The position numbers and the translations under genes are program-made. The notes below the pieces were generated by a model that made no database searches, was not told the origin of the DNA, and worked only from the letters and a program-made list of their open reading frames with translations. Positions 3,406-38,736 of a stretch of DNA of 39,294 nt are shown piece by piece. The stretch comes from Bacteroidota bacterium (lineage in GTDB: Bacteria; Bacteroidota; Bacteroidia; Sphingobacteriales; Sphingobacteriaceae). The stretch lies in NCBI GenBank assembly GCA_013288485.1, contig JABDBW010000017.1, positions 1 to 39,294 of the forward strand. Direction: 5' to 3'. How positions within the stretch are numbered: position 1 is the first letter of the stretch; each line of letters begins with the position of its first letter.

Positions 3406-4143
3406 GTGATCATTCTAATTTTTTTCCTGGCACACTGGTTCCTGTCTTTATTTTTTCAAACATTTTTTCTTCACCGGTATGCTTCCCATAAAATGTTTAG
3501 CACCCATAAAATTAACGAGCGCGTTTTCCACATGCTTACGTTTATATGCCAGGGTTCATCGTATTTAAACCCACGGGCGTATGCTATTATGCACCGTGAG
3601 CATCATGCTTACAGCGATACCGAAAAGGATCCGCATTCGCCCTATTTTTTCAGGGACGTTTTCCAGATGATGTGGCGCACTGCGCAAAGTTATAAGCTAT
3701 ATGAAAAGCGTTTAAAAGAACCTGAGGCCCAATTTAAAGGCAATTACCCTGAGTGGCGTTTGCTGGATTATTGGGGATCAACCTTTTTGTCGCGCATCCT
3801 GTTTGGCATTGGGTACGTGGCATTTTACATTGCTTTTGCTACCCATTGGTGGATGTTTTTGTTGTTGCCTGTCCATTTTATGATGGGCCCTATACATGGT
3901 GCTATTGTAAACTGGTGCGGACATAAATATGGTTATGCTAATTTTAACAATGGCGACAAATCAAAAAACTCAACCCCGCTTGATTTTTTAATGCTCGGCG
4001 AATTGTTTCAAAACAATCATCATAAACGCCCCAACAGCGCCAACTTTGCTGCCCGCTGGTTCGAGTTCGACCCGGTTTACCCGGTAATGAAGTTAATGCA
4101 TTGGGTAAGGTTAATTAAGTTGAGGAAGCCTGTGGCAGTGTAA
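3406..4143 (+). CDS. Membrane fatty acid desaturase (acyl-CoA/acyl-lipid type)
   Basis: A 245-residue integral membrane di-iron desaturase. Histidine boxes are visible: H23RYASH28, H63REHH67, and FQNNHHKRPNSANF near residue 208. Box three reads QNNHH where many stearoyl-CoA-type desaturases have H-x-x-HH, a variant seen in bacterial relatives. Hydrophobic segments at about 1-22, 38-55, and 125-165 supply the membrane hairpins. The reaction is O2-dependent insertion of a cis double bond into a fatty acyl chain. Translation is taken from GTG at 3406; no in-frame ATG precedes box one. TATCTTTA, one base off the -7 consensus, occurs about 40 nt upstream. A second, unrelated desaturase lies at 25.4-26.4 kb. 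Confidence 0.88.
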   Translation: MIILIFFLAHWFLSLFFQTFFLHRYASHKMFSTHKINERVFHMLTFICQGSSYLNPRAYAIMHREHHAYSDTEKDPHSPYFFRDVFQMMWRTAQSYKLYEKRLKEPEAQFKGNYPEWRLLDYWGSTFLSRILFGIGYVAFYIAFATHWWMFLLLPVHFMMGPIHGAIVNWCGHKYGYANFNNGDKSKNSTPLDFLMLGELFQNNHHKRPNSANFAARWFEFDPVYPVMKLMHWVRLIKLRKPVAV

Positions 4144-4260
4144 GGTTAAAGGCGAAAGGTAAAGGGTAAAAGGTTGTTTTTGCTCTTTGTCTTTCTAATA
4201 AAATATTAATCAGGTAGGGTAAGCTTCAACCTTTCAGCTTTTACCTTTTACCTTTCACCT
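4142..4260. repeat. Word array, GGTAAAAGG family, inverted arms
   Basis: Left arm 4142-4176 repeats AAGG-TTAAAGG-CGAAAGG-TAAAGGG-TAAAAGG; right arm 4227-4260 carries the complement (ACCTTTTACCTTTCACC). The arms could pair over about 34 nt around a 50-nt loop. The left arm begins in the desaturase stop codon and the right arm ends 7 nt before the next ATG. The same word family recurs in two rRNA spacers. A terminator-like function is possible but there is no simple U-tract. Confidence 0.85.
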
Positions 4261-4267
4261 CTAAAAA

Positions 4268-5530
4268 ATGAAAGTATCTGCATTAGCCGAAAACCTGCAC
4301 GGTTCTGAAATTATCAAAATTGCGGGCGAGATAAACGAACTGAAACGCCAGGGGCAAAATATTGCCAATTTAACTATCGGCGATTACGACTCGAACATAT
4401 ATCCCATTCCTGCCGAATTAAAACAGGGCATTGTTGACGCCTATGCCGATAATCAAACCAACTATCCTCCTGCAGATGGCGTATTGAGCCTGCGCGAAAG
4501 CGTGGCTGTTTTTTTGAAAAACAGGCTGGGGCTTGATTATAAACCAAACCAAATATTAATTTCGGGCGGATCAAGGCCGTTGATATATTCTACTTACCTG
4601 GCGGTTGTTGATGAGGGGGATAAGGTTGTTTTCCCCGCGCCATCATGGAACAATAACCACTACTGCGACCTGCTAAAGGCCGAAGGTATAGTGGTGCAAA
4701 CCACCGCCGAAAATAATTTTATGCCTACGGCGGATGAGTTGCGCCCGCATATAAAAGGTGCGACTTTGCTTGCACTATGTTCGCCATTGAACCCTACCGG
4801 GACCATGTTTCATAAAAAGGACCTGGAAGAAATTTGCGACCTCGTTATCGCCGAAAACAAAACACGGTCATCAGGGCAAAAACCACTATACTTTTTATAC
4901 GACCAAATATATTCGCAATTAATCTTTGGCGATAATCAGCATTTTGACCCGGTTACACTGCGCCCGGAACTTAAAGACTATGTAATATTTGTTGACGGCG
5001 CATCAAAATGTTTCGCATCTACCGGTGTACGGGTGGGCTGGGGCTTTGGGCCTGAAAGTGTTATTAACCATATGAAAGCTATTGTGGGCCACATGGGCGC
5101 GTGGGCGCCAAAGGCGGAGCAGGTGGCTATGGCTAAATATATATTGGAAAATGATAAAGTGAATAGCTATTTGGAGAGTTTAAAATCAAGGATACAAGCC
5201 AGCCTTAACGCATTACACAAAGGTTTCCAGGAACTAAAGACTGAAGGTTTCCATGTTGATTCCATCGCCCCGATGGGCGCCATTTATTTGACTGTAAAAA
5301 TTGATTACACCGGCAAAACCACACCAGGCGGCATCGTATTAAAAAACTCAACAGACATTAACTCTTACCTGATTAAAGAAGCCAAAATAGCTTTTGTGCC
5401 TTTTTCTTCTTTCGGTACCGATGATGATGTGAACTGGTTCCGTGCATCAGTAGGTGCATGTACCCTGCAGGATATTGAGCAAGCCCTACCGAGGATCAAG
5501 GACGCCCTGGCGAAATTAAGTGGGCAGTGA
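4268..5530 (+). CDS. PLP-dependent aminotransferase, class I/II
   Basis: A 420-residue fold-type I aminotransferase of the aspartate aminotransferase superfamily. K247 in DGASKCFASTG is the expected PLP lysine; N175 in SPLNPTG, D212 and Y215 in YDQIYS, and R255 in GVRVGWG are the usual cofactor and phosphate contacts. The N-terminal segment (IGDYDSNIYPIPAELK...NYPPADGVLSLRE) is the substrate-binding entry seen in alpha-aminotransferases. The amino-acid substrate cannot be read from sequence; no pathway neighbours help. It is preceded closely by a word-array hairpin arm, and its stop codon lies within the left part of another word array that separates it from the convergent PLP gene. Confidence 0.88.
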   Translation: MKVSALAENLHGSEIIKIAGEINELKRQGQNIANLTIGDYDSNIYPIPAELKQGIVDAYADNQTNYPPADGVLSLRESVAVFLKNRLGLDYKPNQILISGGSRPLIYSTYLAVVDEGDKVVFPAPSWNNNHYCDLLKAEGIVVQTTAENNFMPTADELRPHIKGATLLALCSPLNPTGTMFHKKDLEEICDLVIAENKTRSSGQKPLYFLYDQIYSQLIFGDNQHFDPVTLRPELKDYVIFVDGASKCFASTGVRVGWGFGPESVINHMKAIVGHMGAWAPKAEQVAMAKYILENDKVNSYLESLKSRIQASLNALHKGFQELKTEGFHVDSIAPMGAIYLTVKIDYTGKTTPGGIVLKNSTDINSYLIKEAKIAFVPFSSFGTDDDVNWFRASVGACTLQDIEQALPRIKDALAKLSGQ

Positions 5531-5580
5531 ACAGTTGGACTACTATTACATACTCACTACTTACCACTCACAAACTCATT
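5519..5580. repeat. Word array, ACTCACTAC/ACCACTCAC family
   Basis: Between two convergent genes the run ACTCACTACTTACCACTCAC (5553-5572) is followed by AAACTCATT, and a diverged inverse (GTGGGCAGTGAACAGT) covers the stop codon of the upstream gene. The same words recur inside waaA (20.46 kb) and in the tRNA spacer (34.68 kb). Confidence 0.65.
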
Positions 5581-6868
5581 TCTTCCCCGCTATCTCCTCA
5601 ATAGCCCTTACTAATTTATCCAGGTCAGGCAAAGTAGTATATACATGCGGCGTTACGCGTACGCAGCTAATGTTTTCATAGACTATACTTACGGTATGTA
5701 TTTTATATTGGTTAAAAAGCGCGCTGTCCAGTTCTCCGGGTGTCATGCCGTCAATGCTTACGCCGCAAATGGCGCATGAATATTCTGGTTTCAGCGAGGT
5801 ATGCAGTTTTACCTTGGGTATATGCTGCACTTTTTCGGCCCAGTAGTTTTTTAAATAACGTATGCGTTCTTCCTTGCGTTTATTGCCTATCCCGTTCTGA
5901 AAGTTAACCGCCTCGCCAATTCCCTGCTCTATAGGAAAACTGCGTGTGCCCAGGTTCTCGAACTTGCGGATGTCGCCGCTGTTTGGTTTATCGTCACTTA
6001 GCAACGGCCATACCTTTTCTATTTTCTCCTTTTTTATCCATAGCATCCCGCTGCCTATGGGGGCCGACAGGAATTTATGCAGGCTGGTGCCAAAATAATC
6101 GCAGTGCAGGTCGGGGATTTTATAATCAAGCAGGGCAAAGGTATGCGCACCATCGCATATTACTTCAATGCCACGCGCATGGGCCATATCGGCTATTTTA
6201 CGTACCGGCATAATTTGTCCCACCCAGTTAATAATATGAGTTACATGTATCAGCTTTGTTTTTGGGGTGATGGCATCAGCATACGCTTTTACAATTTGCT
6301 CATCATTTTCTATCGGGAACTCAAAGCTGAGCTGTTTGTAAATAATACCCTCGCGCAATGCCCGTTGCCGGTAGGCAGCTACCATGTGCGGATAATCCTG
6401 CCGCGTACCTATTACTTCGTCGCCTTTTTGCAGGGGGATGCCCAATATTATGGTGTTCAACGCTTCGGTAGCATTGCGGTTCACGGCAATTTCTTCCGGA
6501 TCGGCACCGGCCAGCAAGGCCAGTTTTTCGCGGAGCGGCTCGCGCCCCTGGTCGAGTATGCGCCACATGTAATAGGACGGCCCCTCGTTGGATAGCTGGT
6601 TATAACGTTCAACCGCCTGCTGCACCACCAGCGGAGAGGGCGAGACCCCGCCATTATTTAAAATAATAAGGTTTGGGTTAACTGTATACGCCTTTTGTAT
6701 AACACTCCAGTAATCCTCGTCCAGCGCGGCTTCTATGGGGTTTAAATGGGCGATGTTTTGTGCTGCCGACCGCCATTCTTCAGCATGTGCCCGGTTAAAC
6801 AGGCTGGCCGATGAAAATGCCCCGGTTAATACGGCGGCTTGTTTAATAAAATGGCGGCGATCAGTCAT
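5576..6868 (-). CDS. Tat-exported class V aminotransferase-like PLP enzyme
   Basis: A 430-residue enzyme with an N-terminal twin-arginine signal: D-RRHFIKQ at residues 3-10, a hydrophobic stretch AAVLTGAFSSASLF and a likely AHA cleavage site near 29. The body is a class V (cysteine desulfurase / isopenicillin-N epimerase-like) fold: NNGGVSPSP (71-79), VNRNATEALN (129-138), D239 in VICDGAHT, and the PLP lysine K265 in GTSLHKFLSAPIGSG. Tat export of a folded PLP enzyme to the periplasm fits the isopenicillin-N epimerase-like subgroup found in many Bacteroidota; its substrate is unknown. It is monocistronic and converges on the other aminotransferase. Large shadow ORFs on the plus strand (6077-6595) are antisense to it. 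Confidence 0.87.
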   Translation of the reverse strand: MTDRRHFIKQAAVLTGAFSSASLFNRAHAEEWRSAAQNIAHLNPIEAALDEDYWSVIQKAYTVNPNLIILNNGGVSPSPLVVQQAVERYNQLSNEGPSYYMWRILDQGREPLREKLALLAGADPEEIAVNRNATEALNTIILGIPLQKGDEVIGTRQDYPHMVAAYRQRALREGIIYKQLSFEFPIENDEQIVKAYADAITPKTKLIHVTHIINWVGQIMPVRKIADMAHARGIEVICDGAHTFALLDYKIPDLHCDYFGTSLHKFLSAPIGSGMLWIKKEKIEKVWPLLSDDKPNSGDIRKFENLGTRSFPIEQGIGEAVNFQNGIGNKRKEERIRYLKNYWAEKVQHIPKVKLHTSLKPEYSCAICGVSIDGMTPGELDSALFNQYKIHTVSIVYENISCVRVTPHVYTTLPDLDKLVRAIEEIAGKK

Positions 6869-6920
6869 TAGTTAAAGTTAGCGTTTTATGGCGAAACTAT
6901 CAGGTGCTTAAAAGCCAATG

Positions 6921-6934
6921 ATCGTAATTACGAT
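6921..6934. repeat. 14-bp palindrome ATCGTAATTACGAT
   Basis: Perfect palindrome in the 76-bp gap between the start of the class V gene and the end of the next minus-strand gene, about 53 bp upstream of the class V start. A longer relative with the same half-site, TCGTAATT-ac-AATTACGA, lies at the dnaA stop codon (8009-8026). Possible protein-binding site; AT-rich chance is not excluded. Confidence 0.4.
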
Positions 6935-6944
6935 ATAGGAATTT

Positions 6945-7886
6945 TTAATCGTATATTTTTAACTTTTGCTTCAAATACCGTTTTCTTGCTATATAATAAG
7001 CATCGTTTTTATACAGTTCATCATGCGTTTTAAAATAGCCGAAAACTTTAGCCGAATCCACGTCACCGGCTTTATTCATAAATGCGTCGCTCATAATGCT
7101 CATGGTAATTGCCATATTTACCCATGCGGTATCAACAACTGCTGTAATATTTGTAACCATAGTTTGCGAATAATCAACATGCTGTAGCGCTTTGCCTGTA
7201 TTATATTGACAGGCAACATTCGCATCAGCCAGCAAACCGGTAACCTCATTTAACGCATATTTTGCATGTATAGTTTTATCGTCGCTGGCAGCTACGATGT
7301 CCAGGAGCGCACCACGCATTGCTATCACCTTGTAACTTATTTTTGCGGCGGTTGTCCAGGTCGATTGATAGCTTATTTTTTGATCGGGCAATTCAAAAAA
7401 CATGTTTTTTATAGCAGCTGAAAGAAAGTCATTCAAATTGGGTATAATATATTTTTGGATACCCGGAGTCATATGCCAATTTCTTATAGCTTTTTGTATC
7501 AATTCATCAGTACCTTCAAACCTTATCAACTTACTTTTAGGACTCAACACTACTATAAAAGGCTCTTCTAAAAGGACAATTGGTGTTAAAACGGCCGTAG
7601 AATTAAATACCGTTTGCCGTATACTATCCGAGTTTAGCTTTATTGATTTATTTGGCAAATTCAATTGGCTTCTTGCCTTTATTAAAACGCATTGCAACTT
7701 ATACTCCGCATCATTACTGCTGAGTACTGTATATTGAAAGATGTATTGGTCATCGCTGCTAAATTCGGCTTTTGCGATATTGCGGGTTTCGATAGTGAAT
7801 ACCTCGCCATTTTTTAGCGTTAATTGCTGTGCCGGGAGCTTATTAATACTTAATAATACTGCTAGCAGAAGAATAAATCTTTTCAT
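6945..7886 (-). CDS. Secreted protein of unknown function
   Basis: A 313-residue protein with a clear Sec signal peptide (MKRFILLLAVLLSINKLPAQ, cleavage after A19 or Q20). The mature part starts QLTLKNGEVFTIETRNIAKAEFSS and looks mainly beta-stranded in the first half, with a helical C-terminal region (MSDAFMNKAGDVDSAKVFGYFKTHDELYKNDAYYIARKRYLKQKLKIYD). I do not recognise a defined catalytic motif; it somewhat resembles DUF6263-type periplasmic proteins of Bacteroidota, but this is only an impression. There is a single Cys pair (C107-like LQCVLIK and ACQYN). It is monocistronic, between the class V enzyme and dnaA, all on the same strand. Confidence 0.7.
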   Translation of the reverse strand: MKRFILLLAVLLSINKLPAQQLTLKNGEVFTIETRNIAKAEFSSDDQYIFQYTVLSSNDAEYKLQCVLIKARSQLNLPNKSIKLNSDSIRQTVFNSTAVLTPIVLLEEPFIVVLSPKSKLIRFEGTDELIQKAIRNWHMTPGIQKYIIPNLNDFLSAAIKNMFFELPDQKISYQSTWTTAAKISYKVIAMRGALLDIVAASDDKTIHAKYALNEVTGLLADANVACQYNTGKALQHVDYSQTMVTNITAVVDTAWVNMAITMSIMSDAFMNKAGDVDSAKVFGYFKTHDELYKNDAYYIARKRYLKQKLKIYD

Positions 7887-7969
7887 TAATGCCAGGGCGA
7901 TTTCATGCTAATATAATATACTTTATTCGGCTACTAGCCTAATTAACAGTATTTAACAATTAACTGCAT

Positions 7970-7994
7970 AAAAAAACCCTGCACAAGTGCAAGG
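7970..7994 (-). terminator. Intrinsic terminator after dnaA
   Basis: On the minus strand CCTTGCAC-TT-GTGCAGGG (one mismatch) is followed by a run of seven T. It begins about 27 nt after the dnaA stop. Confidence 0.85.
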
Positions 7995-8008
7995 CTGTAA
8001 ATGTATTT

Positions 8009-8026
8009 TCGTAATTACAATTACGA
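8009..8026. repeat. Inverted repeat overlapping the dnaA stop codon
   Basis: TCGTAATT-AC-AATTACGA, 8-bp perfect arms with a 2-nt centre. It spans the last codons of dnaA. Its half-site matches the palindrome at 6921-6934. Confidence 0.4.
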
Positions 8027-9448
8027 CATTTTCAGTTTCTTCTGTATATCGGCTACATAGCCTTTGAATTTTTTGTCGGTGTCTATCAGGTCCTCAACCG
8101 TTTGGCATGCATAGATAACGGTAGAATGGTCGCGGCCACCGAAGAAGTGTCCGATTGATTTCAGGGAGCTTTTGGTATGCGCCTTTGCCAGGTACATTGA
8201 TATTTGCCTTGCCTGCACAATTTCGCGTTTGCGGGTTTGCGATTTCACCATATCAATAGGTACTTCAAAATATTCGCAAACCAGGTTCTGGATGTATTCC
8301 ATTGAAATTTCTTTCGAAGAATTTTTTACAAAGTTCTTCAGCATCTGCTTGGCCAGGTTCAGGTCAATTTCCTTACGGTTAAGGGTTGATTGTGCTAACA
8401 ACGATACCATAGCGCCTTCCAGTTCGCGCACATTATTATCAATATTGTGGGCAACATATTCAATTACATCATCGCCCAGTTCAATACCATCCTGGTAGGT
8501 TTTATTTTTAAGGATAGCCATTCGGGTTTCCAGGTCGGGTATTTGCAGGTCGGCCGAAAGGCCCCATTTAAATCTCGACAATAAACGTTCTTCTAAACCG
8601 GCCAGGTCCTTAGGCGCTTTATCGGATGTAATGATCAATTGCTTGCCCGATTGGTGCAGGTGATTGAAAATATGGAAAAAGAAATCCTGTGTTTTTTCTT
8701 TGCCGGCAAAATTGTGCACATCATCCATTATCAGCACATCAATAGCCTGGTAAAAATTCACAAAATCATTAATGTTATTATGCTTTAAGGCATCAACAAA
8801 TTGCTGGGTAAACTTTTCGCATGATACATACAGTACCAGCTTATCAGGCAGCGCGCGTTTAATTTCGTTGCCTATAGCCTGCGCCAGGTGGGTTTTACCT
8901 AAACCTACGCCGCCATATATCATTAACGGGTTAAATGAGGTACCACCGGGTTTCGCCGCAACAGCATACCCTGCCGAGCGTGCTAAACGGTTACAGTCGC
9001 CTTCAACAAAGTTTTCAAAAGTGTATTGCCTGTTTAATTGCGGGTCTACATTCAGTTTCTTTAAGCCGGGTATTACAAACGGGTTCTTAATATCCTTATT
9101 TATAGAAATAGGAATAGGCATTGACTGATTTTTCGACTCTGCGCCATTTCCGTTTGAAGGCATATTAGTAGTATAAGGTTTGCTGGCTGATGATTGCTCT
9201 ACAACTATGTTATATTCTAAACGTCCGTCATCGCCCAATTGTTTCTTAATTGTTTTACGGAGCAAGCCAACGTAATGTTCTTCAAGCCATTCATAAAAAA
9301 ATAAACTGGGAACTTGTATCGTTAAAACGCTGCCTTCCATACGCAAAGCTTTAATTGGCTCGAACCAGGTTTTAAAGCTTTGGGCGGGGATGTTGTCTTT
9401 TATTATCAGCAGGCAGCTGTTCCAAACGTTAGTACAAGTTTTTTCCAT
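8021..9448 (-). CDS. dnaA: Chromosomal replication initiator protein DnaA
   Basis: A 475-residue DnaA with all four domains. Domain I (1-75, VWNSCLLIIKDNIPAQSFKTWFEPIKAL) binds helicase and regulators; domain II is a short linker rich in S/N/P (about 85-125). The AAA+ domain III has Walker A GGVGLGKTH (179-187), Walker B VLIMDDVHNF (near 240), sensor 1 LIITSDKAP and the arginine-containing LLSRFKWGL. Domain IV ends with the DNA-binding signature GGRDHSTVIYA near 450. It opens the origin as an ATP-bound oligomer. The ATG gives the canonical N-terminus (MEKTCTNVWN). dnaN and recF are not adjacent, as often in Bacteroidota. A terminator follows. The upstream gap is described separately. Confidence 0.98.
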   Translation of the reverse strand: MEKTCTNVWNSCLLIIKDNIPAQSFKTWFEPIKALRMEGSVLTIQVPSLFFYEWLEEHYVGLLRKTIKKQLGDDGRLEYNIVVEQSSASKPYTTNMPSNGNGAESKNQSMPIPISINKDIKNPFVIPGLKKLNVDPQLNRQYTFENFVEGDCNRLARSAGYAVAAKPGGTSFNPLMIYGGVGLGKTHLAQAIGNEIKRALPDKLVLYVSCEKFTQQFVDALKHNNINDFVNFYQAIDVLIMDDVHNFAGKEKTQDFFFHIFNHLHQSGKQLIITSDKAPKDLAGLEERLLSRFKWGLSADLQIPDLETRMAILKNKTYQDGIELGDDVIEYVAHNIDNNVRELEGAMVSLLAQSTLNRKEIDLNLAKQMLKNFVKNSSKEISMEYIQNLVCEYFEVPIDMVKSQTRKREIVQARQISMYLAKAHTKSSLKSIGHFFGGRDHSTVIYACQTVEDLIDTDKKFKGYVADIQKKLKMS

Positions 9449-9804
9449 ATAAAATTTTAAATAAAAGATTGATTTTCAACCCCCCAGTGCACTTTCATTG
9501 GGATTGCTACGGAACATCGAATATTCAGAAAAAAAGCGAATTAAAAAATTTATTTTTCACTTTTTATTAAAATAAATTTAAAAAAAACAGCACTTAATGT
9601 TGTGAAAATCCGAATATAAAAAGTTATATTTCGCATGAACAGACCGCCATTATATTCTTTTTAATAGTAAACCCTGCGTTTTATGCTGTTTTGGCGGTTT
9701 TATTATTAATTACCTCAAATATTTTAGCTTAATATCTTCTTAACGTTAAGGTATTATTGGCGTAATTTTAGGAATCTCTACTATTTCGATAGGGTTAATT
9801 TTTC
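9449..9804. other. 356-bp AT-rich gap upstream of dnaA
   Basis: No ORF or RNA gene. It is strongly AT-rich, with poly-A/T stretches around 9530-9595, a 12-bp palindrome CTTAACGTTAAG (9739-9750) and a 7-bp inverted repeat ACCGCCA/TGGCGGT (9643-9649 and 9692-9698). DnaA-box-like strings are weak: TTTTTCAC near 9553 and TGTGAAAAT at 9601, the latter matching the consensus TTATNCACA imperfectly. I see no box cluster, so I do not call this the origin. The dnaA promoter must lie here, but I find no clean TAnnTTTG pair. Confidence 0.5.
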
Positions 9805-11352: not shown

Positions 11353-11359
11353 ATTTGTT

Positions 11360-11450
11360 GATTTGAAAATTTGAAGATGTGCTAATTTGAAAATGTTGTT
11401 TCATAATCATAAAGTGATTTTCAAATCTTCAAATTAACACATTCTCAAAT
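11360..11450. repeat. Word array, ATTTGAAAAT family, inverted arms
   Basis: Left arm 11360-11395 reads GATTTGAAAATTTGAAGATG then TGCTAATTTGAAAATG; right arm 11416-11450 is a near complement (TTTTCAAATCTTCAAATTAACACATTCTCAAAT). The arms pair over about 35 nt with a 20-nt loop. The right arm reaches the stop codon of the next gene. The hairpin lies between two co-directional minus-strand genes, so it may attenuate or process their transcript. Confidence 0.88.
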
Positions 11451-11980
11451 TAAAATAATTCCTGCAGATCCCTGCGGACCAGGTTAAGGCCAATATCATA
11501 CGGGTTATCTTCCAGGTGGCTTAAATGCGCCAGTATGGTTTTGCTTAGCTCAAGCCCGGTAGCGGCAGCAGGCAATGCTTTAACCGCGTTGTTTACTATG
11601 CCTAAGGTATCATCCTTTAACCGTTTCACTACGGCCCAGGCATTGCTGCTTACGTAAATTTGCTGGGTAACGTTATGCTGATACTCATTACGCAATTCGG
11701 CAACTATAAGCATATGTAATTCGGCAGCCGAGTAAGCGGGGTCATTTAAGCGAAGCAGCATATTGGCGGGGTTTATCCGCTCAATAAATAACACCACGCG
11801 CTCGTATGCCTGTAGTTGTAAAGGCAGCGTTTGGTTGCTGATGGTTTTTTTTAGTTCGACAAGTTGGATGCTTTCCGATCTGTCAAGGTAGGGCTTTACC
11901 AGGTAAAAAGCTATCCATACCACACCCAAACCGGCAACCGTATATTTTATAATATCTAATAAATAAGGATAAAGTACCAT
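11450..11980 (-). CDS. Small membrane-anchored protein of unknown function
   Basis: A 176-residue protein with one N-terminal transmembrane helix (YPYLLDIIKYTVAGLGVVWIAFYLV, about 4-28) followed by a cytoplasmic or periplasmic helical domain: LVELKKTISNQTLPLQLQAYERVVLFIERINPANMLLRLNDPAYSAAELHMLIVAELRNEYQHNVTQQIYVSSNAWAVVKRLKDDTLGIVNNAV. No catalytic motif is visible. The helical region LPLQLQAYERVVLFIERI and the tail NLVRRDLQELF seem characteristic of a Bacteroidota-specific family I cannot name. It precedes the mutase gene on the same strand with a 97-bp gap holding a word-array hairpin, and is divergent from the iscA-like gene, sharing a 90-bp intergenic region. Confidence 0.75.
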   Translation of the reverse strand: MVLYPYLLDIIKYTVAGLGVVWIAFYLVKPYLDRSESIQLVELKKTISNQTLPLQLQAYERVVLFIERINPANMLLRLNDPAYSAAELHMLIVAELRNEYQHNVTQQIYVSSNAWAVVKRLKDDTLGIVNNAVKALPAAATGLELSKTILAHLSHLEDNPYDIGLNLVRRDLQELF

Positions 11981-12432: not shown

Positions 12433-12495
12433 ATAAGAATCAAGAGCGGGGATGGTGAAAGTCTTAATTCCTGCATCTTGATTCCTGACTCTCCG
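12433..12495. repeat. Word array, GAATCAAGA family, inverted arms
   Basis: Between convergent genes, left arm AAGAATCAAGAGCGGGGATG and right arm CTGCATCTTGATTCCTGACTCTCC are imperfect complements and can form a hairpin. The AGTCAGGA-TTCAAGA words recur in the 23S-tRNA spacer at 34341-34382. A bidirectional terminator role is plausible from its position. Confidence 0.7.
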
Positions 12496-13007: not shown

Positions 13008-13147
13008 GGTGATTAAATTTAAAAAGTGAATTTAGCACATATTTTATAAATATGTCCGGTTTAAAACCTATCGCTATTTATAAAAATATAGTTGTAACAA
13101 ATCGCTCCGTTGCTTAGTCTTACCGCTAAGTTTTTTATATTTATACC

Positions 13148-14389
13148 ATGCCGGTAAAAACCACCCTTCGGGAAAACGTTTCGATAGCCCTACAATCTAT
13201 AGCCGGTAACAGGCTTCGCACCTCGCTTACTTCTCTAATTATTGCGATCGGTATCATGGCTTTGGTGGGGATATTAACGGCAATCGAAGGCATTAAACAA
13301 TATACTACCGACGCTTTTTCAAGGCTGGGGGCCAACTCCTTCACTATACAGAACAGGGGGTCGGGCGTTAATTTTGGGAATGGCGGCCATAGAAAGATAT
13401 ATCCGTCTATCAGTTACGAGCAGGCCCAGCGCTTTAAAGAAACCTTTCAACTGCCCGCGTTAGTTGCTATAAATTTAGATATATCGGGCATTGCAGTTGT
13501 AAAATATGGTAGTTTAAAAACTAACCCTAACATTACAGTAACCGGCACCAATGAGAATTATTTGCAAACCAATGGCTATAAATTAGCTTTTGGCCGCAGT
13601 TTTTCAGAATCAGAACTGGAGCATGGCGCTAATGTGGTAATTATAGGCGACGAAATAAAAACAAAACTTTTTAAAAATGAGGACCCTGTTAATAAATCTA
13701 TTTTTGTAGGCAGCAATAAATTCCGGATAATCGGGGTTTTTGCCTCAAAAGGATCGAGCGCCGGCTTTGGGGGCGACAGGGTTTGTACTATTCCCATATT
13801 TAAGGCCAAGCAAATTGCCGAAATTTCAAAACCATCATTCGCGGTTACTGTAATGGTAACTAACGGTGGCGGATTTGACGCGAGTATTGGTGAGGCCACC
13901 TCTCTTTTCAGGAACATACGCGGCCTTAATGTTGCTAACGCTGATAATTTTGAAATAACCAGGAGTGATTCGGTACAGCAACAGTTAGCCGGCCAGTTAA
14001 ACGGTATGACGATAGCCGGATTTGCCATAGGCATAATTACCTTAATTGGCGCCGCCATAGGGTTAATGAATATTATGCTGGTTTCTGTTACCGAGCGTAC
14101 CCGCGAAATTGGTATACGCAAAGCAATAGGCGCTACCCCCGCAGTAATACGCAAGCAGTTTTTAATCGAGGCTATAGTAATATGTTTGATAGGCGGCATT
14201 GGCGGCATCGTACTGGGTATGGCCGTTGGCAACCTTATAGCCGTGCAGATAAGCGGTAAATTTGTTATTCCCTGGCTATGGCTCTTCTCGGCTATAGCAT
14301 TGTGTACCTTAATTGGTTTGCTATCCGGATTTTATCCCGCCAAAAAAGCATCCCGGCTTGACCCTGTAGAAGCGTTGCGATACGAATAG
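13148..14389 (+). CDS. MacB-like ABC transporter permease
   Basis: A 413-residue permease with the MacB/FtsX topology: one N-terminal helix ([20 protein letters not shown], about 27-47), a 220-residue periplasmic domain, and three C-terminal helices in the FtsX domain (about 283-310, 335-362 and 375-398), including [30 protein letters not shown] and the tail [18 protein letters not shown]. MacB-type permeases do not move substrates through the membrane but transmit ATPase motion to the periplasm for efflux or lipoprotein release. The ATPase subunit is not in the window on either side, nor is an HlyD-type adaptor, so the partner must be encoded elsewhere. Confidence 0.9.
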
Positions 14390-14430
14390 ATGTGCAGATG
14401 CGTGGATGTGCAGATATGCAAATGTGCACT
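14389..14430. repeat. Word array, GATGTGCAGAT family
   Basis: GATGTGCAGATGCGTGGATG, then TGCAGATATGCAAATGTGCACT: the word GATGTGCA is reiterated four times with changes. It starts at the permease stop codon and ends just before the convergent gene. Only one orientation is present. Confidence 0.7.
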
Positions 14431-19623: not shown

Positions 19624-20850
19624 ATGTTGTTAATATATAACTTAGGATTACGCGTATACTATATTTTAATATTCATATTTTCTGCTTTCAATAAAAAGGC
19701 AAAGCTTTGGATAAAGGGGCGGCAGCAAATTATTTATGCCAATCCACATGAAAGCATTTGGTTTCATTTTGCTTCGCTGGGTGAGTTTGAGCAGGGCCGA
19801 CCGGTTTTAGAACAGATCAGAAACCTGCACCCGAAAAGCAAAATTGTTATCACCTTTTTTTCGCCATCGGGGTATGAGGTCAGAAAAAACACACCACTGG
19901 CCGATGCAGTTTATTACCTGCCACTGGATACAGCTAAAAATGCCCGCGAATTTGTAACCGCTATAAACCCAACGCTCGTTATATTCACTAAATACGAATA
20001 CTGGTATCATTTTTTTAACGAACTGCATCAGCGGGATATACCTTTATATATCATATCGGGCATATTCAGGCCAAAGCAGGTTTTTTTTAAATGGTATGGC
20101 GGCCTGCATCGTAAAATATTAAGTTTTGTGCGCCACTTTTTTGTGCAGGATGAACGGTCAAAACAATTACTGCGATCTATTAAATTAACCAACGTAACCG
20201 TGAGCGGCGATACCCGTTTCGACCGCGTTTGGGCCAACGCCCGGCAACCAAAAATACTGCCGGAAATACAAGAATTTATAGGCGGTCAAAAAACATTTAT
20301 AGCCGGCAGCACCTGGCCTGCCGACGAGCAACTGGTAGCCAAATTAGTTACCCTATACCCGGGCTGTAAATTTATTTTTGCCCCGCATGAAATTAGTGAA
20401 GAGAAAATAAATAGCCTTATTAGTTTGCTGCCTGAAAACTCTGCGGTCCGATACACACAACTTACCACTCACCACTCACCACTCACCACTCAAACACTCA
20501 TTATCGATAACATCGGTATGTTGTCCTCCCTGTATCAATACGGCGATATCGCTTATATTGGCGGCGGGTTTGGCGCGGGTATACATAATACCTTAGAGGC
20601 GGCGGCATTTGGTTTGCCTGTAATTTTTGGCCCTAATTATGCTAAGTTTAAAGAGGCGAAAGACCTGGTAGAACTCTGTGCGGGTTTTAGCGTGGCTAAT
20701 GAGGACGAATTGAAAAATTTAGTAGCCGCTTTAGTTGATGATGATGCTTATTGTAGAAATGCTGGTACGAAAGCAAGGGAATATGTAACAGAGAATATAG
20801 GGGCTACGGGGGTTATTGTTGAGTATATAGAAAAAGCATTATCCTATTGA
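19624..20850 (+). CDS. waaA: 3-deoxy-D-manno-octulosonic acid (Kdo) transferase
   Basis: A 408-residue GT30 enzyme. N-terminal membrane anchor (LLIYNLGLRVYYILIFIFSAF), acceptor domain with HFASLGEFEQGRPVLEQIR (catalytic-type Glu E54), donor domain with TFIAGSTWPADEQLV, KFIFAPHEISEEKI, and IGGGFGAGIHNTLEAAAFGLPVIFGPNYAKF. It adds Kdo to lipid A precursor at the inner membrane. Unusual: residues about 280-292 (QLTTHHSPLTTQT) are encoded by four tandem 7-bp ACCACTC units at 20464-20491, in a variable loop just ahead of LIIDNIGMLSSLYQYGDIAYIGGGF. The rest looks intact, so the gene is probably functional. The next gene begins 1 bp after its stop. Confidence 0.93.
   Translation: MLLIYNLGLRVYYILIFIFSAFNKKAKLWIKGRQQIIYANPHESIWFHFASLGEFEQGRPVLEQIRNLHPKSKIVITFFSPSGYEVRKNTPLADAVYYLPLDTAKNAREFVTAINPTLVIFTKYEYWYHFFNELHQRDIPLYIISGIFRPKQVFFKWYGGLHRKILSFVRHFFVQDERSKQLLRSIKLTNVTVSGDTRFDRVWANARQPKILPEIQEFIGGQKTFIAGSTWPADEQLVAKLVTLYPGCKFIFAPHEISEEKINSLISLLPENSAVRYTQLTTHHSPLTTQTLIIDNIGMLSSLYQYGDIAYIGGGFGAGIHNTLEAAAFGLPVIFGPNYAKFKEAKDLVELCAGFSVANEDELKNLVAALVDDDAYCRNAGTKAREYVTENIGATGVIVEYIEKALSY
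20459..20500 (+). repeat. Word array inside waaA: (ACCACTC)x4
   Basis: Four perfect 7-bp units ACCACTC (20464-20491) flanked by AACTT and AAACACTCATT. Seven is not a multiple of three, so unit gain or loss would shift the waaA frame unless three units change together. The same words (CTTACCACTCAC, AACTCATT) occur in the intergenic arrays at 5551-5580 and 34678-34702. Confidence 0.9.
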
Positions 20851-28262: not shown

Positions 28263-28302
28263 AACCCCCTCTCTCCCGATAGCTATCGGGAGAGAGGGGG
28301 TT
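28263..28302. repeat. 40-bp perfect palindrome
   Basis: A perfect 20-nt-arm palindrome centred on CCCGATAGCTATCGGG (28275-28290), extended on both sides by CTCTCT/AGAGAG and AACCCCC/GGGGGTT. No mismatch or spacer. It lies between the anchored protein and the membrane-protein/kinase genes, and can extrude as a cruciform or fold as an RNA hairpin, but no T-tract follows. Confidence 0.95.
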
Positions 28303-29727: not shown

Positions 29728-29730
29728 AAA

Positions 29731-30378: not shown

Positions 30379-30395
30379 GATTTATATTTGCTTTA

Positions 30396-30971: not shown

Positions 30972-30975
30972 TTAT

Positions 30976-30990
30976 TCCGCCTTTGGCGGA
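30976..30990. repeat. Palindromic repeat TCCGCC-TTT-GGCGGA
   Basis: A 6-bp-arm hairpin between 5S and the terminator. It shares TCCGCCN3-4GGCGGATAAA with the 23S gene (33071-33090) and its core with 22848-22867. Confidence 0.75.
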
Positions 30991-31002
30991 TAAAATAAAA
31001 TT

Positions 31003-31112: not shown

Positions 31113-31116
31113 TTTC

Positions 31117-31176
31117 TTTGAGGTAAAAGGCTGGAAGGTAAAAGGTTTTTCCTTTCGCTTCCTTACGTTTTTACCC
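31117..31176. repeat. Word array in the 5S-23S spacer, GGTAAAAGG family
   Basis: Left arm GAGGTAAAAGGCTGGAAGG then TAAAAGGTTT (31120-31148), right arm CCTTTCGCTTCCTTACG then TTTTTACCC (31151-31176). It forms a tight hairpin. Same family as 4142-4260 and 34481-34550. Confidence 0.8.
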
Positions 31177-31205
31177 GGTATTTTATTTGTTTAACCGGCC
31201 CAAAA

Positions 31206-31364
31206 CCATGAACTATCATCCATGAACTATGAACCAATAAAACAATGACAAAAATTGAAAGAAGTAATTCAAGAGAAAACAACAGTTTATTATTATCTGT
31301 CTGTTGTTTTGTTGTGGTTGATAGTTCATGGTTCATGGCTACATATTACTATGAACTATGATCC
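31206..31364. repeat. Word array in the 5S-23S spacer, CATGAACTAT family
   Basis: CCATGAACTATCATCCATGA then ACTATGAACC (31206-31235), its inverse GGTTGATAGTTCATGGTTCA then TGG (31316-31338), and a third direct copy TATGAACTATGATCC (31350-31364). Long hairpin potential inside the rRNA precursor. Confidence 0.85.
31272..31285. other. 23S processing stem, 3' strand
   Basis: AGAGAAAACAACAG here is an exact reverse complement of CTGTTGTTTTCTCT at 34428-34441; with one flanking base on each side the match is 16 bp. The two lie about 105 and 148 nt outside the 23S ends, as expected for an RNase III-type precursor stem. A local hairpin AACAACAG/CTGTTGTT competes with it. Confidence 0.6.
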
Positions 31365-31390
31365 ATTTGCTATCAACCTTTAATTCAACA

Positions 31391-34280
<2,890 letters not shown>

Positions 34281-34340
34281 CTACCATTGCCGCCTTTTGC
34301 TCGGCACGGTATGCTTTTTGATTCTTGTTGTGTCCGGCAG

Positions 34341-34382
34341 ATCCAAGAGTCAGGATTCAAGAGCCAAGACGAATCTTGATCC
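34341..34382. repeat. Word array in the 23S-tRNA spacer, GATTCAAGA family
   Basis: ATCCAAGAGTCAGGATTCAA then GAGCCAAGACGAATCTTGAT: the word ATTCAAGA/GCCAAGA is reiterated, with the inverse ATCTTGATCC close by. The same AGTCAGGA-TTCAAGA words occur between the iscA-like and DUF3347 genes (12433-12495). Confidence 0.75.
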
Positions 34383-34427
34383 TTGTTTCTTTATTCTTGT
34401 CTCTTTCAGAGCCCCAACAGTCCTCTA

Positions 34428-34441
34428 CTGTTGTTTTCTCT
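34428..34441. other. 23S processing stem, 5' strand
   Basis: CTGTTGTTTTCTCT, complementary to 31272-31285 on the far side of 23S. It also forms a local hairpin CAACAG-TCCTCTA-CTGTTG (34415-34433). Confidence 0.6.
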
Positions 34442-34480
34442 TTTTTTACTTCTTCCAATATGTCAAAGAACGTTCGTTTT

Positions 34481-34550
34481 GAGGTAAAAGGTGAAAGGTT
34501 TTGAGGTAAAAGGTATTACCTTTCGCCTTTAACCTTTAGGCCTTTAACCT
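34481..34550. repeat. Word array in the 23S-tRNA spacer, GGTAAAAGG family
   Basis: Left GAGGTAAAAGGTGAAAGG then TTTTGAGGTAAAAGGT (34481-34514); right ATTACCTTTCGCCTTTAACC then TTTAGGCCTTTAACCT (34515-34550). Arms of about 34 nt meet with no loop, giving a near-perfect hairpin. Confidence 0.88.
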
Positions 34551-34556
34551 AAAACT

Positions 34557-34633
34557 TGGTGGAGAATAACGGATTCGAACCGTTGACCCTCTGCGTGCAA
34601 GGCAGATGCTCTAGCCAGCTGAGCTAATCCCCC
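34557..34633 (-). tRNA. tRNA-Ala (anticodon TGC)
   Basis: On the minus strand GGGGGATTAGCTCAGCTGGC starts a full cloverleaf: D-arm AGCTCAGCTGGCTAGAGC, anticodon loop CTTGCAC giving TGC, T-arm GGTTCGAATCC, acceptor GGGGGAT/ATTCTCC, discriminator A. The 3' CCA is encoded. It sits between 23S and tRNA-Ile in the rRNA operon. Confidence 0.97.
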
Positions 34634-34640
34634 CTTAGAT

Positions 34641-34702
34641 TGAGTTTGCAGTTCTGAGTTTGCAGTTCTGAGTTCCTTAACTCATTACGCACAACTCATT
34701 AC
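34641..34702. repeat. Word array between the two tRNAs
   Basis: Left TGAGTTTGCAGTTCTGAGTT then TGCAGTTCTGAGTT (34641-34674); right TAACTCATTACGCACAACTC then ATTAC (34678-34702). AACTCATT is the same word seen at 5571-5580 and at the edge of the waaA array. Confidence 0.75.
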
Positions 34703-34727
34703 TTTTAACTGCGGCTCCGCCGCAATG

Positions 34728-34802
34728 TAGTCCCGAGCAGATTTGAACTGCTGACCCCTACATTATCAGTGTAGTGCTCTAACCAAACTGAGCTACAGGA
34801 CT
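34728..34802 (-). tRNA. tRNA-Ile (anticodon GAT)
   Basis: On the minus strand AGTCCTGTAGCTCAGTTTGG starts the cloverleaf: anticodon loop CTGATAA giving GAT, T-arm AGTTCAAATCT, acceptor AGTCCTG/CGGGACT with discriminator A. The next bases are CAT, so CCA is not encoded, unlike the neighbouring tRNA-Ala. The 16S-Ile-Ala-23S order is the usual one. Confidence 0.96.
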
Positions 34803-34806
34803 TTTT

Positions 34807-34897
34807 TGAGTTTGCAGTTTTGAGTTTGCAGTTTTGAGTTGTTAGCTTCGCTTTTGCTAACTGCCAACTGCCTTCTGCCTACTGATAACTGCCAACC
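34807..34897. repeat. Word array in the 16S-tRNA spacer, GCAGTT family
   Basis: Left GAGTTTGCAGTTTTGAGTTT then GCAGTTTTGAGTTGTTAGC; right GCTAACTGCCAACTGCCTTC then TGCCTACTGATAACTGCCAACC. The arms are imperfect complements around a short loop. AACTGCCAACT also appears upstream of 16S at 36862-36873. Confidence 0.82.
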
Positions 34898-34966
34898 GAG
34901 TGTCCCTGCCCCAGCGGGCCGGCACCACATAGATGGCTTCATCTTTGGGTTTACTTTTTGTTATTA

Positions 34967-35053
34967 ATGAGTGAATTAGTGAATGAATGAATTAGTGAAT
35001 GTTTGAACCATTCAGGCCTAATCAACTATTCTCTAATCAACTAATCATCTAAC
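34967..35053. repeat. Word array in the 16S-tRNA spacer, GTGAATTAG family
   Basis: Left ATGAGTGAATTAGTGAATGA then ATGAATTAGTGAATG; right CATTCAGGCCTAATCAACTA then TTCTCTAATCAACTAATCATC. Each side repeats its word three or four times; the sides are diverged complements. Confidence 0.78.
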
Positions 35054-35065
35054 TTTAAGAAATTT

Positions 35066-35081
35066 AAATCATGCAGTAAGC
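35066..35081. other. 16S processing stem, 3' strand
   Basis: AAATCATGCAGTAAGC is complementary at 15 of 16 positions to GCTCACTGCATGATTT at 36887-36902 on the other side of 16S, the layout of an RNase III precursor stem. Confidence 0.8.
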
Positions 35082-35122
35082 AGTTTTGCTCATTTTGGGA
35101 AGCGGAATGGGAGATATTGCTC

Positions 35123-36645
<1,523 letters not shown>

Positions 36646-36774
36646 GTAAAATGTTTAGTCTGACTTCCCGACCCTATTATTAATAATAGAATCTGATTAA
36701 TCATTGTTATTGTATTCTTTATACAATATCTCCGCTTTCTTTCCGATTCTTCCTTCGTAAGCGCCCTCTTCTCT

Positions 36775-36874
36775 TAGTTATTAGTTATTGGTTATTCAGT
36801 TATTGGTTCCCGGCCGCTCGTTATTACTAACTGCTTTCTCTTACTGCTAACTGCTAACTTAAAACTGCCAACTT
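36775..36874. repeat. Word array in the 16S leader, AGTTATT/CTGCTAACT families
   Basis: Left AGTTATTAGTTATTGGTTAT then TCAGTTATTGGTT (36777-36808); right TTATTACTAACTGCTTTCTC then TTACTGCTAACTGCTAACTT and AAAACTGCCAACTT (36821-36874). The right side repeats CTGCTAACT several times and partly complements the left. Confidence 0.78.
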
Positions 36875-36886
36875 CCTTAAAAGCCC

Positions 36887-36902
36887 GCTCACTGCATGAT
36901 TT
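36887..36902. other. 16S processing stem, 5' strand
   Basis: GCTCACTGCATGATTT, reverse complement of 35066-35081 with one mismatch. It lies about 240 nt upstream of the mature 16S 5' end in the direction of transcription. Confidence 0.8.
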
Positions 36903-37051
36903 TCTATTCCTTATAAGAACTTTCTTAGTTCGCTTCGCAGCAAACTTTGTATTTTGGTTATCACCTTTAACAGTGATTACTTTTTCAATTTTTGTATGCC
37001 GGAAATCGCTTCCGGCAACCGCTTTATTTAACGCCCCTTGTTTTGGGACTG

Positions 37052-37081
37052 CAAAGGTACGAACCTTTTCTGCTTCTGCAA
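37052..37081 (-). promoter_or_regulatory. rRNA operon promoter P2 (proximal)
   Basis: Minus strand: TTG (37081-37079), 19-nt spacer, TACCTTTG (37059-37052). Both boxes fit the Bacteroidota sigma-ABfr promoter (-33 TTTG, -7 TAnnTTTG). Predicted start near 37047. Confidence 0.8.
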
Positions 37082-37146
37082 GATATATTATTAAATATTT
37101 TTTTCTTGAATTTTCAGAGCCATTTCGCTATGTTTTTTGCGGGCTG

Positions 37147-37177
37147 CAAAGTTACACCGAATTTTGGCTTATTCAAA
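37147..37177 (-). promoter_or_regulatory. rRNA operon promoter P1 (distal)
   Basis: Minus strand: TTTG (37177-37174), 19-nt spacer, TAACTTTG (37154-37147), a full match to the Bacteroidota consensus with the same spacing as P2, 95 bp away. After both -7 boxes comes the same CAG trinucleotide. Confidence 0.85.
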
Positions 37178-37344
37178 TGGTTTTTACTATTAAAACATAA
37201 ATCTTTGCAAATCAGGCGTAAAATTTAAAGGCAGCTTGTTAGCTCAATACTATCTTCCGGCACCATTCGTTAAAAGATGTTAAAACAGCACCATATATAT
37301 ACATAGAATAAAAACACGCTATATATTAGCCGGTAAATAAATAA

Positions 37345-37375
37345 TTGACTGTTTTATAATATTCCCTTATCTTTG
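37345..37375 (+). promoter_or_regulatory. bamD promoter
   Basis: TTG (37345-37347), 20-nt spacer, TATCTTTG (37368-37375). The -7 box ends 4 nt before the ATG, so the transcript would be leaderless or nearly so. Confidence 0.7.
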
Positions 37376-37379
37376 CAAA

Positions 37380-38303
37380 ATGTTTAAAAAACACCAAGCG
37401 CTATTTGCCGGTATTTTACTTGTATTGATCTTTGCAGTAGCAGGCTGCAAAACCAAGTATGAAAAACTAAAAGCAAGTAATGATAACGCCAAAAAATTCC
37501 AGGAAGGTAAAAGGCTGTATGATAAAAAAGAATACAGCAAAGCATTGGGGCTATTTGAAACCCTGCTAACCCGTTATCGTGGCCAGGATGGGGCCGTGGA
37601 CCTATTTTATTATAATGCGTACACTAACTACAGATTAAAGGATTATACAGCAGCGGCTTATCATTTTAAAGATTTTGCTACTTCCTATCCATCGGACCCA
37701 CGCGCAGAGGAATGTAGGTTTTTAACAGCCTATTGCTATTACCTGGATGCGCCTGTATTTTCGTTAGACCAGGAGAACACCTTAAAGTGTATCGAATCAT
37801 TACAATTGTTTATTAACCTTTACCCTAAAAGCGAACGTGATGCCGAGGCGAGTAAACTGATACAAAACCTGCGCGACAGGCTGGAGCAAAAGGCCTATGC
37901 CAATGCAAAAATGTATTTAACCATAGGCGAGAACCAGTCGGCTGTTATAGCATTTGGTAATATGCTGCGCGATTACCCCGATACTAAATATGCTGAAGAA
38001 TTGGAATTTTTAACTATAAAAGCACAATATGCATACGCCCACGAAAGCCGTGAATATAAACAGGAAGAGCGGTACACTCAAACCATAACGGATGCTGACC
38101 TGTTTGTTGATAAATACCCGAAGAGCGCTTATGTAAGCCAGGCCCAGGCGGTAAAAAAAGATAGCCAAAGCGCTATCCTTTCGGTAAAAAGGTTGATGGC
38201 TGAGGCGCTCAATAATGACCGGATTGCCCGGAGGCTAGCTAAAAAAGATTCTGTAGCTATACCACTTTCAGAGAAACCTGACCTTAATAAAAAAATTCCA
38301 TAA
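37380..38303 (+). CDS. bamD: Outer membrane assembly lipoprotein BamD
   Basis: A 307-residue lipoprotein. Signal MFKKHQALFAGILLVLIFAVAGC has a lipobox VAGC with lipidated C23. The mature part is a chain of TPR-like helical pairs (KFQEGKRLYDKKEYSKALGLFETLLTRYRGQDGAVDLFYYNAYTNYRLKDYTAAAYHFKDFATSYPSDPRAEECRFLTAYCYY, then SLQLFINLYPKSERDAEASKLIQNLRDRL and later repeats). BamD is the essential partner of BamA in inserting beta-barrel proteins at the inner face of the outer membrane. Followed 10 bp later by the omega gene and then coaBC, the usual Bacteroidota order. Confidence 0.93.
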   Translation: MFKKHQALFAGILLVLIFAVAGCKTKYEKLKASNDNAKKFQEGKRLYDKKEYSKALGLFETLLTRYRGQDGAVDLFYYNAYTNYRLKDYTAAAYHFKDFATSYPSDPRAEECRFLTAYCYYLDAPVFSLDQENTLKCIESLQLFINLYPKSERDAEASKLIQNLRDRLEQKAYANAKMYLTIGENQSAVIAFGNMLRDYPDTKYAEELEFLTIKAQYAYAHESREYKQEERYTQTITDADLFVDKYPKSAYVSQAQAVKKDSQSAILSVKRLMAEALNNDRIARRLAKKDSVAIPLSEKPDLNKKIP

Positions 38304-38313
38304 TTAAAAAGAT

Positions 38314-38658
38314 ATGAGTAACAACGTAATTAATACAACAACAAACAAACCTGCTATAGCCAGCAGTACAGTAACCCGTGATCTGCGTGAACTGGATGTA
38401 GAAACAGGCAACATTTATGAGTCGCTGGTGATTATGTCAAAAAGGGCGAACCAGATATCAAATAATATAAAGGAAGAATTGCATCAAAAACTTTCGGAGT
38501 TTGCTTCGTCAAATGATAACCTGGAAGAGATATTCGAAAATCGCGAGCAAATAGAAATATCTAAATATTACGAAAAATTGCCGAAACCTTCATTGGTTGC
38601 AGTTCAGGAATTTTTAGATGGCAAAATTTACTACCGCAATCCTACAAAAGAAGTATAA
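38314..38658 (+). CDS. rpoZ: RNA polymerase omega subunit (Bacteroidota type)
   Basis: A 114-residue protein whose core VTRDLRELDVETGNIYESLVIMSKRANQISNNIKEELHQKLSEF holds the omega/Rpb6 fold's conserved pattern (N-I-Y-E-x-x-x-I-x-x-x-R-A-x-Q). Its location between bamD and coaBC is the standard Bacteroidota context for rpoZ. The variable N-terminus (MSNNVINTTTNKPAIASST) and C-terminal tail (EEIFENREQIEISKYYEKLPKPSLVAVQEFLDGKIYYRNPTKEV) are lineage-specific. It binds beta' and helps assemble RNA polymerase; a (p)ppGpp-site role as in Proteobacteria is not established here. Confidence 0.85.
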   Translation: MSNNVINTTTNKPAIASSTVTRDLRELDVETGNIYESLVIMSKRANQISNNIKEELHQKLSEFASSNDNLEEIFENREQIEISKYYEKLPKPSLVAVQEFLDGKIYYRNPTKEV

Positions 38659-38668
38659 GCTTCTTTTA

Positions 38669-38736
38669 ATTCAAATCCTTAAAGTCAAAATTCAAAAATA
38701 TTTGGTTTTCCAGTTTTTTTGAATTTTGGCTTTTTA
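38669..38736. repeat. Word array, ATTCAAAAT family, between rpoZ and coaBC
   Basis: Left ATTCAAATCCTTAAAGTCAA then AATTCAAAAATATTTGG; right TTTTTTGAATTTTGGCTTTTT. The TCAAAATTCAAAA/TTTTGAATTTTGG words pair as a hairpin and resemble the family at 11360-11450. Confidence 0.75.

Follow-up and report, generated by a model that had tools for sequence, protein, structure and literature searches.

Proteins of the PF05635 family are the 23S rRNA intervening-sequence proteins (IVP, or S23), four-helix bundles with solved structures and no known function. Their genes are found in the intervening sequences (IVSs) of Leptospira and Coxiella, sporadic and selfish-looking elements in which a PF05635 open reading frame (ORF) lies within complementary arms (PMC4990558). 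In a second system, the REPINs, which are inverted doublets of repetitive extragenic palindromic (REP) sequences, many gene-less copies populate extragenic space, and a single lineage-specific gene for a REP-associated tyrosine transposase (RAYT) is flanked by its own repeat, with several families per genome (PMC3116915). Moreover, separate descriptions exist of heptamer repeats in cyanobacteria, Xanthomonas and Beggiatoaceae, with no accepted origin. Here we examine a stretch of 39,294 nt (the window), contig 17 of a partial metagenome-assembled genome of a soil Mucilaginibacter (2.50 Mb, 62% complete), in which short degenerate words are repeated in tandem and often return in inverted orientation. 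We think it probable (roughly 0.7) that these word hairpins are dispersed gene-less members of an element family whose gene-bearing members hold a PF05635 gene within inverted arms.

The elements resemble IVSs in their complementary, stem-forming ends, in the PF05635 gene of the gene-bearing members, and in their presence in rRNA operons, where they are gene-less and lie in spacers. In contrast, IVSs sit within 16S and 23S rRNA genes, whereas the present elements occupy rRNA spacers and the gaps separating protein genes, and the arms here are arrays of degenerate 7- or 8-nt words, with copies lacking PF05635 dispersed in large numbers. The elements have in common with REPIN-RAYT systems the lineage-specific gene flanked by its own repeat, the several families per genome and the abundant gene-less inverted doublets, but the partner is a four-helix-bundle protein and not a Y1 transposase, the arms are tandem degenerate words and not compact palindromes, and RAYT-associated REPs coexist separately. 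Like the GGGNATC and GGGGAYT heptamers of Xanthomonas and Nostoc, the units are 7 nt, G-rich, preferentially about four to an array and mainly intergenic; those repeats, in the accessible sections of PMC4692102, are read as G-quadruplex repeats with one word per genome, and no gene partner is proposed there. Heptamer arrays, some of them hairpin-armed, are also known as TAACTGA (PMC4679880), as the short tandemly repeated repetitive (STRR) sequences of cyanobacteria (PMC2670836) and as the TDNGATT/NNTGAGT stems of trnL P6b (PMC4476775), the last with repeated whole-word replacement at one slot, as in the rRNA slots described below. The portions of these three papers available to us each consider a single word or a pair of words, state the origin to be unknown and contain no link to IVP that we found. 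Simple-sequence heptamer repeats are likewise tandem and mainly intergenic, but they have one dominant near-perfect word, whereas many degenerate words coexist in this genome; in a comparison with miniature inverted-repeat transposable elements (MITEs), inverted arms were observed and no transposase partner was seen. A first-pass annotation of the window had separated the arrays from REPs, bacterial interspersed mosaic elements, MITEs and clustered regularly interspaced short palindromic repeats (CRISPR), which holds as far as tested. It had also considered the system undescribed; this is true of the IVP link, for which we found no report in the open-access literature (subscription papers were outside the scope of the search), but not of heptamer arrays as such (PMC4692102, PMC4679880, PMC2670836).

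The arrays are confirmed to be real and not products of chance. We scanned for periodic segments scoring at least 12 (match +1, mismatch -1), with dinucleotide shuffles as the null. The window contains 8, 3 and 6 segments of period 7, 8 and 14, compared to 0.2, 0.0 and 0.0 in shuffles, and Tandem Repeats Finder (TRF) independently found arrays of these periods at almost all the sites first named. In the 1.23 Mb sampled from the source genome (about half of it), we counted 132, 39 and 97 such segments, compared to 6, 7 and 3 in a shuffle. An inverted partner lay within 160 nt of 92 of the 171 period-7 and period-8 arrays, at a score never reached when the flanks were shuffled (0/171). Thus, with window, genome and flank shuffles all far below the observed counts, chance is rejected, and the word arrays and inverted arms originally reported, at densities far above composition-matched sequence, stand. 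Two rules can be added to that report: the period is 7 (8 in a minority), and the arms are polarised, since 87 of the 92 arrays with a partner have the G-rich arm on the 5' side, and 50 of 55 adjacent array pairs are complementary, with the G-rich arm first in all 50. The units are indeed degenerate, but they follow this rule of period, and their words fall into families common to the genus. A purine-G anchor universal to all words was tested and is unsupported. At least 147 of the 171 arrays fall between predicted genes and 19 in predicted coding frames, in DNA that is 88% coding. Words recur at unrelated loci, as had been noted; TGAACTATGAACTATGAAC, for instance, has 55 copies in the genome at up to two mismatches, and its reversed control has none.

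Some arm pairs stand 350-600 nt apart around one small gene, and three such genes belong to PF05635 (23S_rRNA_IVP). The source genome has five PF05635 genes, all five within inverted word arms and each with a different word. In an unbiased scan of 952 genes, just four lay within periodic G-first arms: all three IVP genes of the sampled DNA and one other. PF05635 genes are present in 147 of 150 Mucilaginibacter genomes and in 0 of 14 control genomes. At the first 34 IVP loci analyzed, the arms scored 17-36 without exception (shuffled maximum, 16). Under a uniform method, with a cut-off of 14 (the 99th percentile of the null), arms were found at 56 of 59 in-genus IVP loci, with a G-rich 5' arm in all 56, and, elsewhere in Bacteroidota (other genera and families), at 24 of 30. 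IVP genes of cyanobacterial plasmids had G-first heptamer arms in nine of nine cases, seven of them above all shuffles, with words such as GGGAACA, GTCAGGA, GGGAAAA and GCTTTTA. Among 138 IVP arms, 31 distinct words were counted. The median number of units per arm was 4.4 (interquartile range 4.2-5.0). We also note that on cyanobacterial plasmids (L353, L356, L359), IVP genes are found within CRISPR operons (cas6-IVP-cas4, cas10-IVP-cmr3).

The word goes with the IVP lineage and not with the genome. IVP pairs from different genomes had the same word in 100% of cases at an identity of at least 0.8 and in about 1% below 0.4, and unlike IVPs of one genome never did. Because the high-identity bins consist mostly of orthologous loci, we retested the association on one locus from each of 35 orthologous groups; 28% of pairs with identity of at least 0.5 had the same word, compared to 0.7% of other pairs, a difference equalled in 0 of 2000 permutations. 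Thus, the association extends beyond orthologous loci. Among gene-less arrays, 145 of 207 matched IVP arms of other genomes (reversed control, 55). Of 37 genus genomes, 14 have the IVP clade whose word is GTTCATG; median TGAACTA copies per Mb were 7.6 with the cognate clade and 1.4 without it (P = 1.7e-4, optimistic because the genomes are related; control word, P = 0.80), and in two genomes (G035, G023) TGAACTA matches bracket the cognate IVP. Words recur across the genus, and species differ in the favored one, such that TGAACTATGAAC and its reversed control are abundant in different genomes. Array density also follows the number of IVP genes, clearly at the extremes and noisily between. Based on 100-200 kb per genome (1.19 Mb for the source), period-7 plus period-8 arrays per Mb were 0 and 20 in genomes with no IVP (G159, G036), 0 with one (G071), 70 with two (G065), 20 with three (G110), 175 with fifteen (G101), and 134 in the source genome.

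In the window itself, inverted arms of 18-37 nt occur at 4.14/4.23, 11.36/11.42, 31.2/31.3 and 38.68/38.72 kb and are also visible at 34.34-34.9 kb. Arrays occupy all five rRNA spacer positions (upstream of 16S, 16S-tRNAIle, Ile-Ala, Ala-23S and 23S-5S), which bears out the claim that every rRNA spacer holds one. Seven window hairpins, folded as RNA, gave z scores of -2.5 to -6.7. The features are:

4142-4174, + strand: G-rich 5' arm, word AGGTAAA, period 7 (fold with partner, z -5.6)
4221-4260, - strand: C-rich 3' arm (ACCTTTT) of the same hairpin
5549-5580, - strand: weak single C-rich array ACTCACTACTTACCACTCAC, 3' of a stop codon (from the sequence; under the scan threshold)
11353-11394, + strand: 5' arm, 8-nt word ATTTGAAA (TRF, scan, inverted-arm search)
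11417-11453, - strand: 3' arm pairing with 11353-11394 (z -3.6)
12434-12492, unstranded: short hairpin, word AATCAAGA / TCTTGATTCCTGACTC (fold z -4.0)
14388-14428, + strand: single array, 8-nt word GATGTGCA, convergent genes either side (TRF, scan)
20457-20492, - strand: C-rich array CACCACT, within open frame 19624-20850
31122-31178, unstranded: weak hairpin, word GGTAAAAGG, 5S/23S rRNA spacer
31204-31236, - strand: array AACCATGAACTATCATCCATGAACTATGAACC (word GTTCATG), 23S-5S spacer
31315-31378, unstranded: hairpin, word GTTCATG, arms 31315-31338 and 31348-31378 (fold z -6.7)
34339-34405, unstranded: hairpin, word CAAGAATC, immediately upstream of 23S (fold z -2.5)
34482-34555, unstranded: hairpin, word AGGTAAA, tRNA-Ala/23S spacer (fold z -4.5)
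34641-34710, unstranded: arrays TGAGTTTGCAGTTC / ACTCATTACGCACA, tRNA-Ile/tRNA-Ala spacer (TRF)
34804-34896, unstranded: hairpin, word AGTTTGC / GCCAACT, 16S/tRNA-Ile spacer (fold z -4.3)
34963-35052, unstranded: 8-nt arrays GAATGAGT and CTAATCAA, mutually non-complementary, downstream of 16S
36774-36876, unstranded: arrays TTAGTTA and CTAACTG, upstream of 16S
38681-38733, unstranded: weak hairpin AAAGTCAAAATTCAAAAA / TTTTTGAATTTTGGCTTT (inverted-arm search)

Among the sites originally named, those at 5.5 and 38.7 kb are weak, and the 20.46 kb array is inside an open frame.

Comparison of orthologous intergenic regions revealed some junctions with nothing inserted, some with a gene-bearing element and some with a gene-less one, as well as swaps of one word for another at the same slot, rRNA spacers included. 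Two genomes have just 2 nt between pyrR and pyrB, one has 106 nt containing arms alone, and sixteen have 492-705 nt, in which GAATATC-type arms surround an IVP-type insert; other genomes carry an unrelated CGTCATTGCGAGG palindrome. At 11.35 kb, the ATTTGAAA hairpin is found in the window and in one relative (L001), a hairpin of another word in a second (L002), and nothing in five more (L003, L004, L006, L007, L010). The 14.39 kb site varies among relatives, which have both arms of the same word (L006), a different word, or an ordinary GC-rich terminator. Across 28 rRNA operons, equivalent slots are filled by stems of different words; arms of at least 12 were found in 10/28, 11/28, 9/27 and 7/28 slots, compared to 1, 0, 0 and 0 in shuffles. 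Separately, a second repeat, CGTCATTGCGAGGTACGAAGCAATC...GATTGCTTCGTACCTCGCAATGACG, is found at the pyrR-pyrB junction of many relatives (L339-L352), sometimes inside word-arm remnants, and resembles the CGTC-tagged palindromes in the available part of PMC3733652.

How might an IVP gene and its words be connected? The element consists of two inverted arms, each with four to five degenerate units that are 7 or, in some cases, 8 nt long; the 5' arm is G-rich and the 3' arm C-rich. An AlphaFold2 model of an IVP of the source genome (pLDDT 97) matches 2gsc with a template modeling (TM) score of 0.94 and 2rld at about 0.8. Avd, a protein of diversity-generating retroelements (DGRs), has the same fold, with TM of about 0.8 to chains of 4dwl and 8ub7 (Avd and DGR ribonucleoprotein chains) and a weak, below cut-off NCBIfam match; in contrast to DGRs, no reverse transcriptase (RVT_1) was found in the assembled source genome (62% complete). 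The Xanthomonas IVP homologue is a toroidal homopentamer whose function is not known (PMC4990558). Such a pentamer would bind one arm, with about one subunit per unit. According to Rehm et al. (PMC4692102), GGGAATC of Xanthomonas, the genus of 2gsc, strongly favors arrays of four units and inverted pairs that converge (70-75 pairs for GGGNATC, the G-rich strand being the sense strand where the repeats follow stop codons), which fits one pentamer per arm, although no link to that gene was drawn there. Through recognition by IVP, hairpins without a gene would be able to spread or be maintained in trans, a role that RAYTs are thought to have for REPINs, and the whole would be a REPIN-like, two-part, selfish system, with many words per genome because each IVP lineage has its own. 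The arms would also pair in RNA, where RNase III could cut them as it does rRNA intervening sequences; such processing is plausible because the window hairpins fold stably as RNA, and it could account for the tolerance of inserts in operons and rRNA spacers. If so, the match of IVP to word supplies a testable partner for the repeats and for the genes alike, and lineage-matched words offer a reason why Mucilaginibacter rRNA spacers and operon junctions change wholly between species while the stem is often kept. A wider proposal, which we hold tentatively and at somewhat worse than even odds, is that of a transposase-free mobile repeat system in several phyla, in which the IVP pentamer reads four to five words, one unit per subunit, this code alone sets which hairpins spread, novel words originate along with novel IVP lineages, and STRR, GGGNATC and TAACTGA are its products.

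Several observations weigh against the view that word hairpins are gene-less relatives of IVP elements. We know of no catalytic site in IVP, and neither a reverse transcriptase nor a Y1 transposase was found in the assembled source genome. We could demonstrate neither an excision product nor, at the divergence of the sequences compared, a target duplication. We found no near-identical whole hairpins at separate loci in the sampled half of the genome; because same-word hairpins have common arms but not common loops, recent copy-and-paste is not seen. Many TGAACTA arrays occur without a cognate IVP in the assembly (the source genome, 62% complete, and G013, G031, G033), some gene-less words, AGTTTGC and GAATGAGT among them, are matched by no IVP of the sample, G110 is array-poor with its three IVPs, and the genome comparisons lack phylogenetic independence. 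Finally, AGGTAAA arms at L141 (13013-13654) enclose a non-IVP gene (13123-13620), possibly cargo, whose 165-aa product looks secreted and matches nothing in Pfam or NCBIfam.

We considered that the hairpins came first, by slippage, template switching or otherwise, and that IVP genes are passengers homing into hairpin loops. IVSs do occupy rRNA helix loops (PMC4990558), gene-less hairpins greatly outnumber gene-bearing ones, and a non-IVP gene is also enclosed by arms. Nevertheless, we judge this unlikely, since the sampled IVP-free genomes are array-poor (G159 has 0 arrays in 200 kb, and G036 has 2 in 100 kb), the word tracks the IVP lineage rather than the genome, and one word is more abundant where its IVP clade is present.

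Less probable still, with only a slim chance in our estimate, is that these are selected RNA hairpins (terminators, or processing stems of rRNA and mRNA) that evolve by local duplication, the IVP association being secondary. The stable RNA folds, the conservation of rRNA spacer slots across species and the ordinary GC-rich terminator at one slot in L003 are as expected of such hairpins, but the vocabulary is common to different loci and species, and orthologous junctions are sometimes empty. Moreover, intergenic regions are hit at similar rates, whether co-directional (74/594), divergent (18/150) or convergent (16/141), unlike terminators; this lack of preference argues against terminators as the primary identity.

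The original proposal, local slippage and template switching with seeding between loci, is right in describing a multi-word system with inverted arms and seeding between loci. As a purely local process it is very improbable. Heptamers are generally favored in simple repeats (cited in PMC4679880), and perfect long expansions exist (ACTCAATA x13 in L117, 10792-10897; a GTGAGTG array in L125, 4956-5056). In contrast, an arm's own partner was its best match in just 8 of 41 cases (6.4 expected), with a mean score of 18.4 compared to 14.9 for same-word arms elsewhere. Since own-locus partners hardly beat those of other loci, arm similarity is mostly at the level of the word family, and we reject palindrome copying between arms as its main source. 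The 11.35 kb array differs from that of a 92%-identical relative solely by point changes and 1 nt in length, and local generation leaves the IVP linkage unexplained: the words are those flanking PF05635 genes genus-wide, and sampled genomes with at most one such gene have almost no arrays. Long near-perfect expansions of single words, which include TGAACTA x13 (G035:C6:166442-166537), suggest occasional slippage on arrays.

That the arrays are REPINs of RAYT (Y1_Tnp) transposases can be practically dismissed: the anatomy of inverted extragenic doublets is similar, and Y1_Tnp is present in array-rich G101, G005, G015 and G030 and absent from G159 and G036, but 26 Y1_Tnp loci are mostly flanked by palindromic REPs without 7/8 periodicity, with a word array within 400 nt in one of the 26, and the source assembly yielded no Y1_Tnp. 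A link to reverse transcriptases was also rejected, as in seven genomes these genes do not track IVP presence (none in the source assembly, one each in two IVP-free genomes).

Most RAYT genes of Mucilaginibacter relatives (L382-L407) have classical REPs in inverted orientation on their flanks, such as CAAGCGTCCACGCTTG and GCCCCATAGGGGC. The window also holds a perfect 40-bp palindrome at 28263-28302 (AACCCCCTCTCTCCCGATAG/CTATCGGGAGAGAGGGGGTT), which is not a word array. Another palindromic repeat, AAAGTCTCCCC...GGGGGAGATTTAGAGGGGGCT, occurs at several loci (flanks of L125 10965-11849; L144 5185-5330), once between two word arms.

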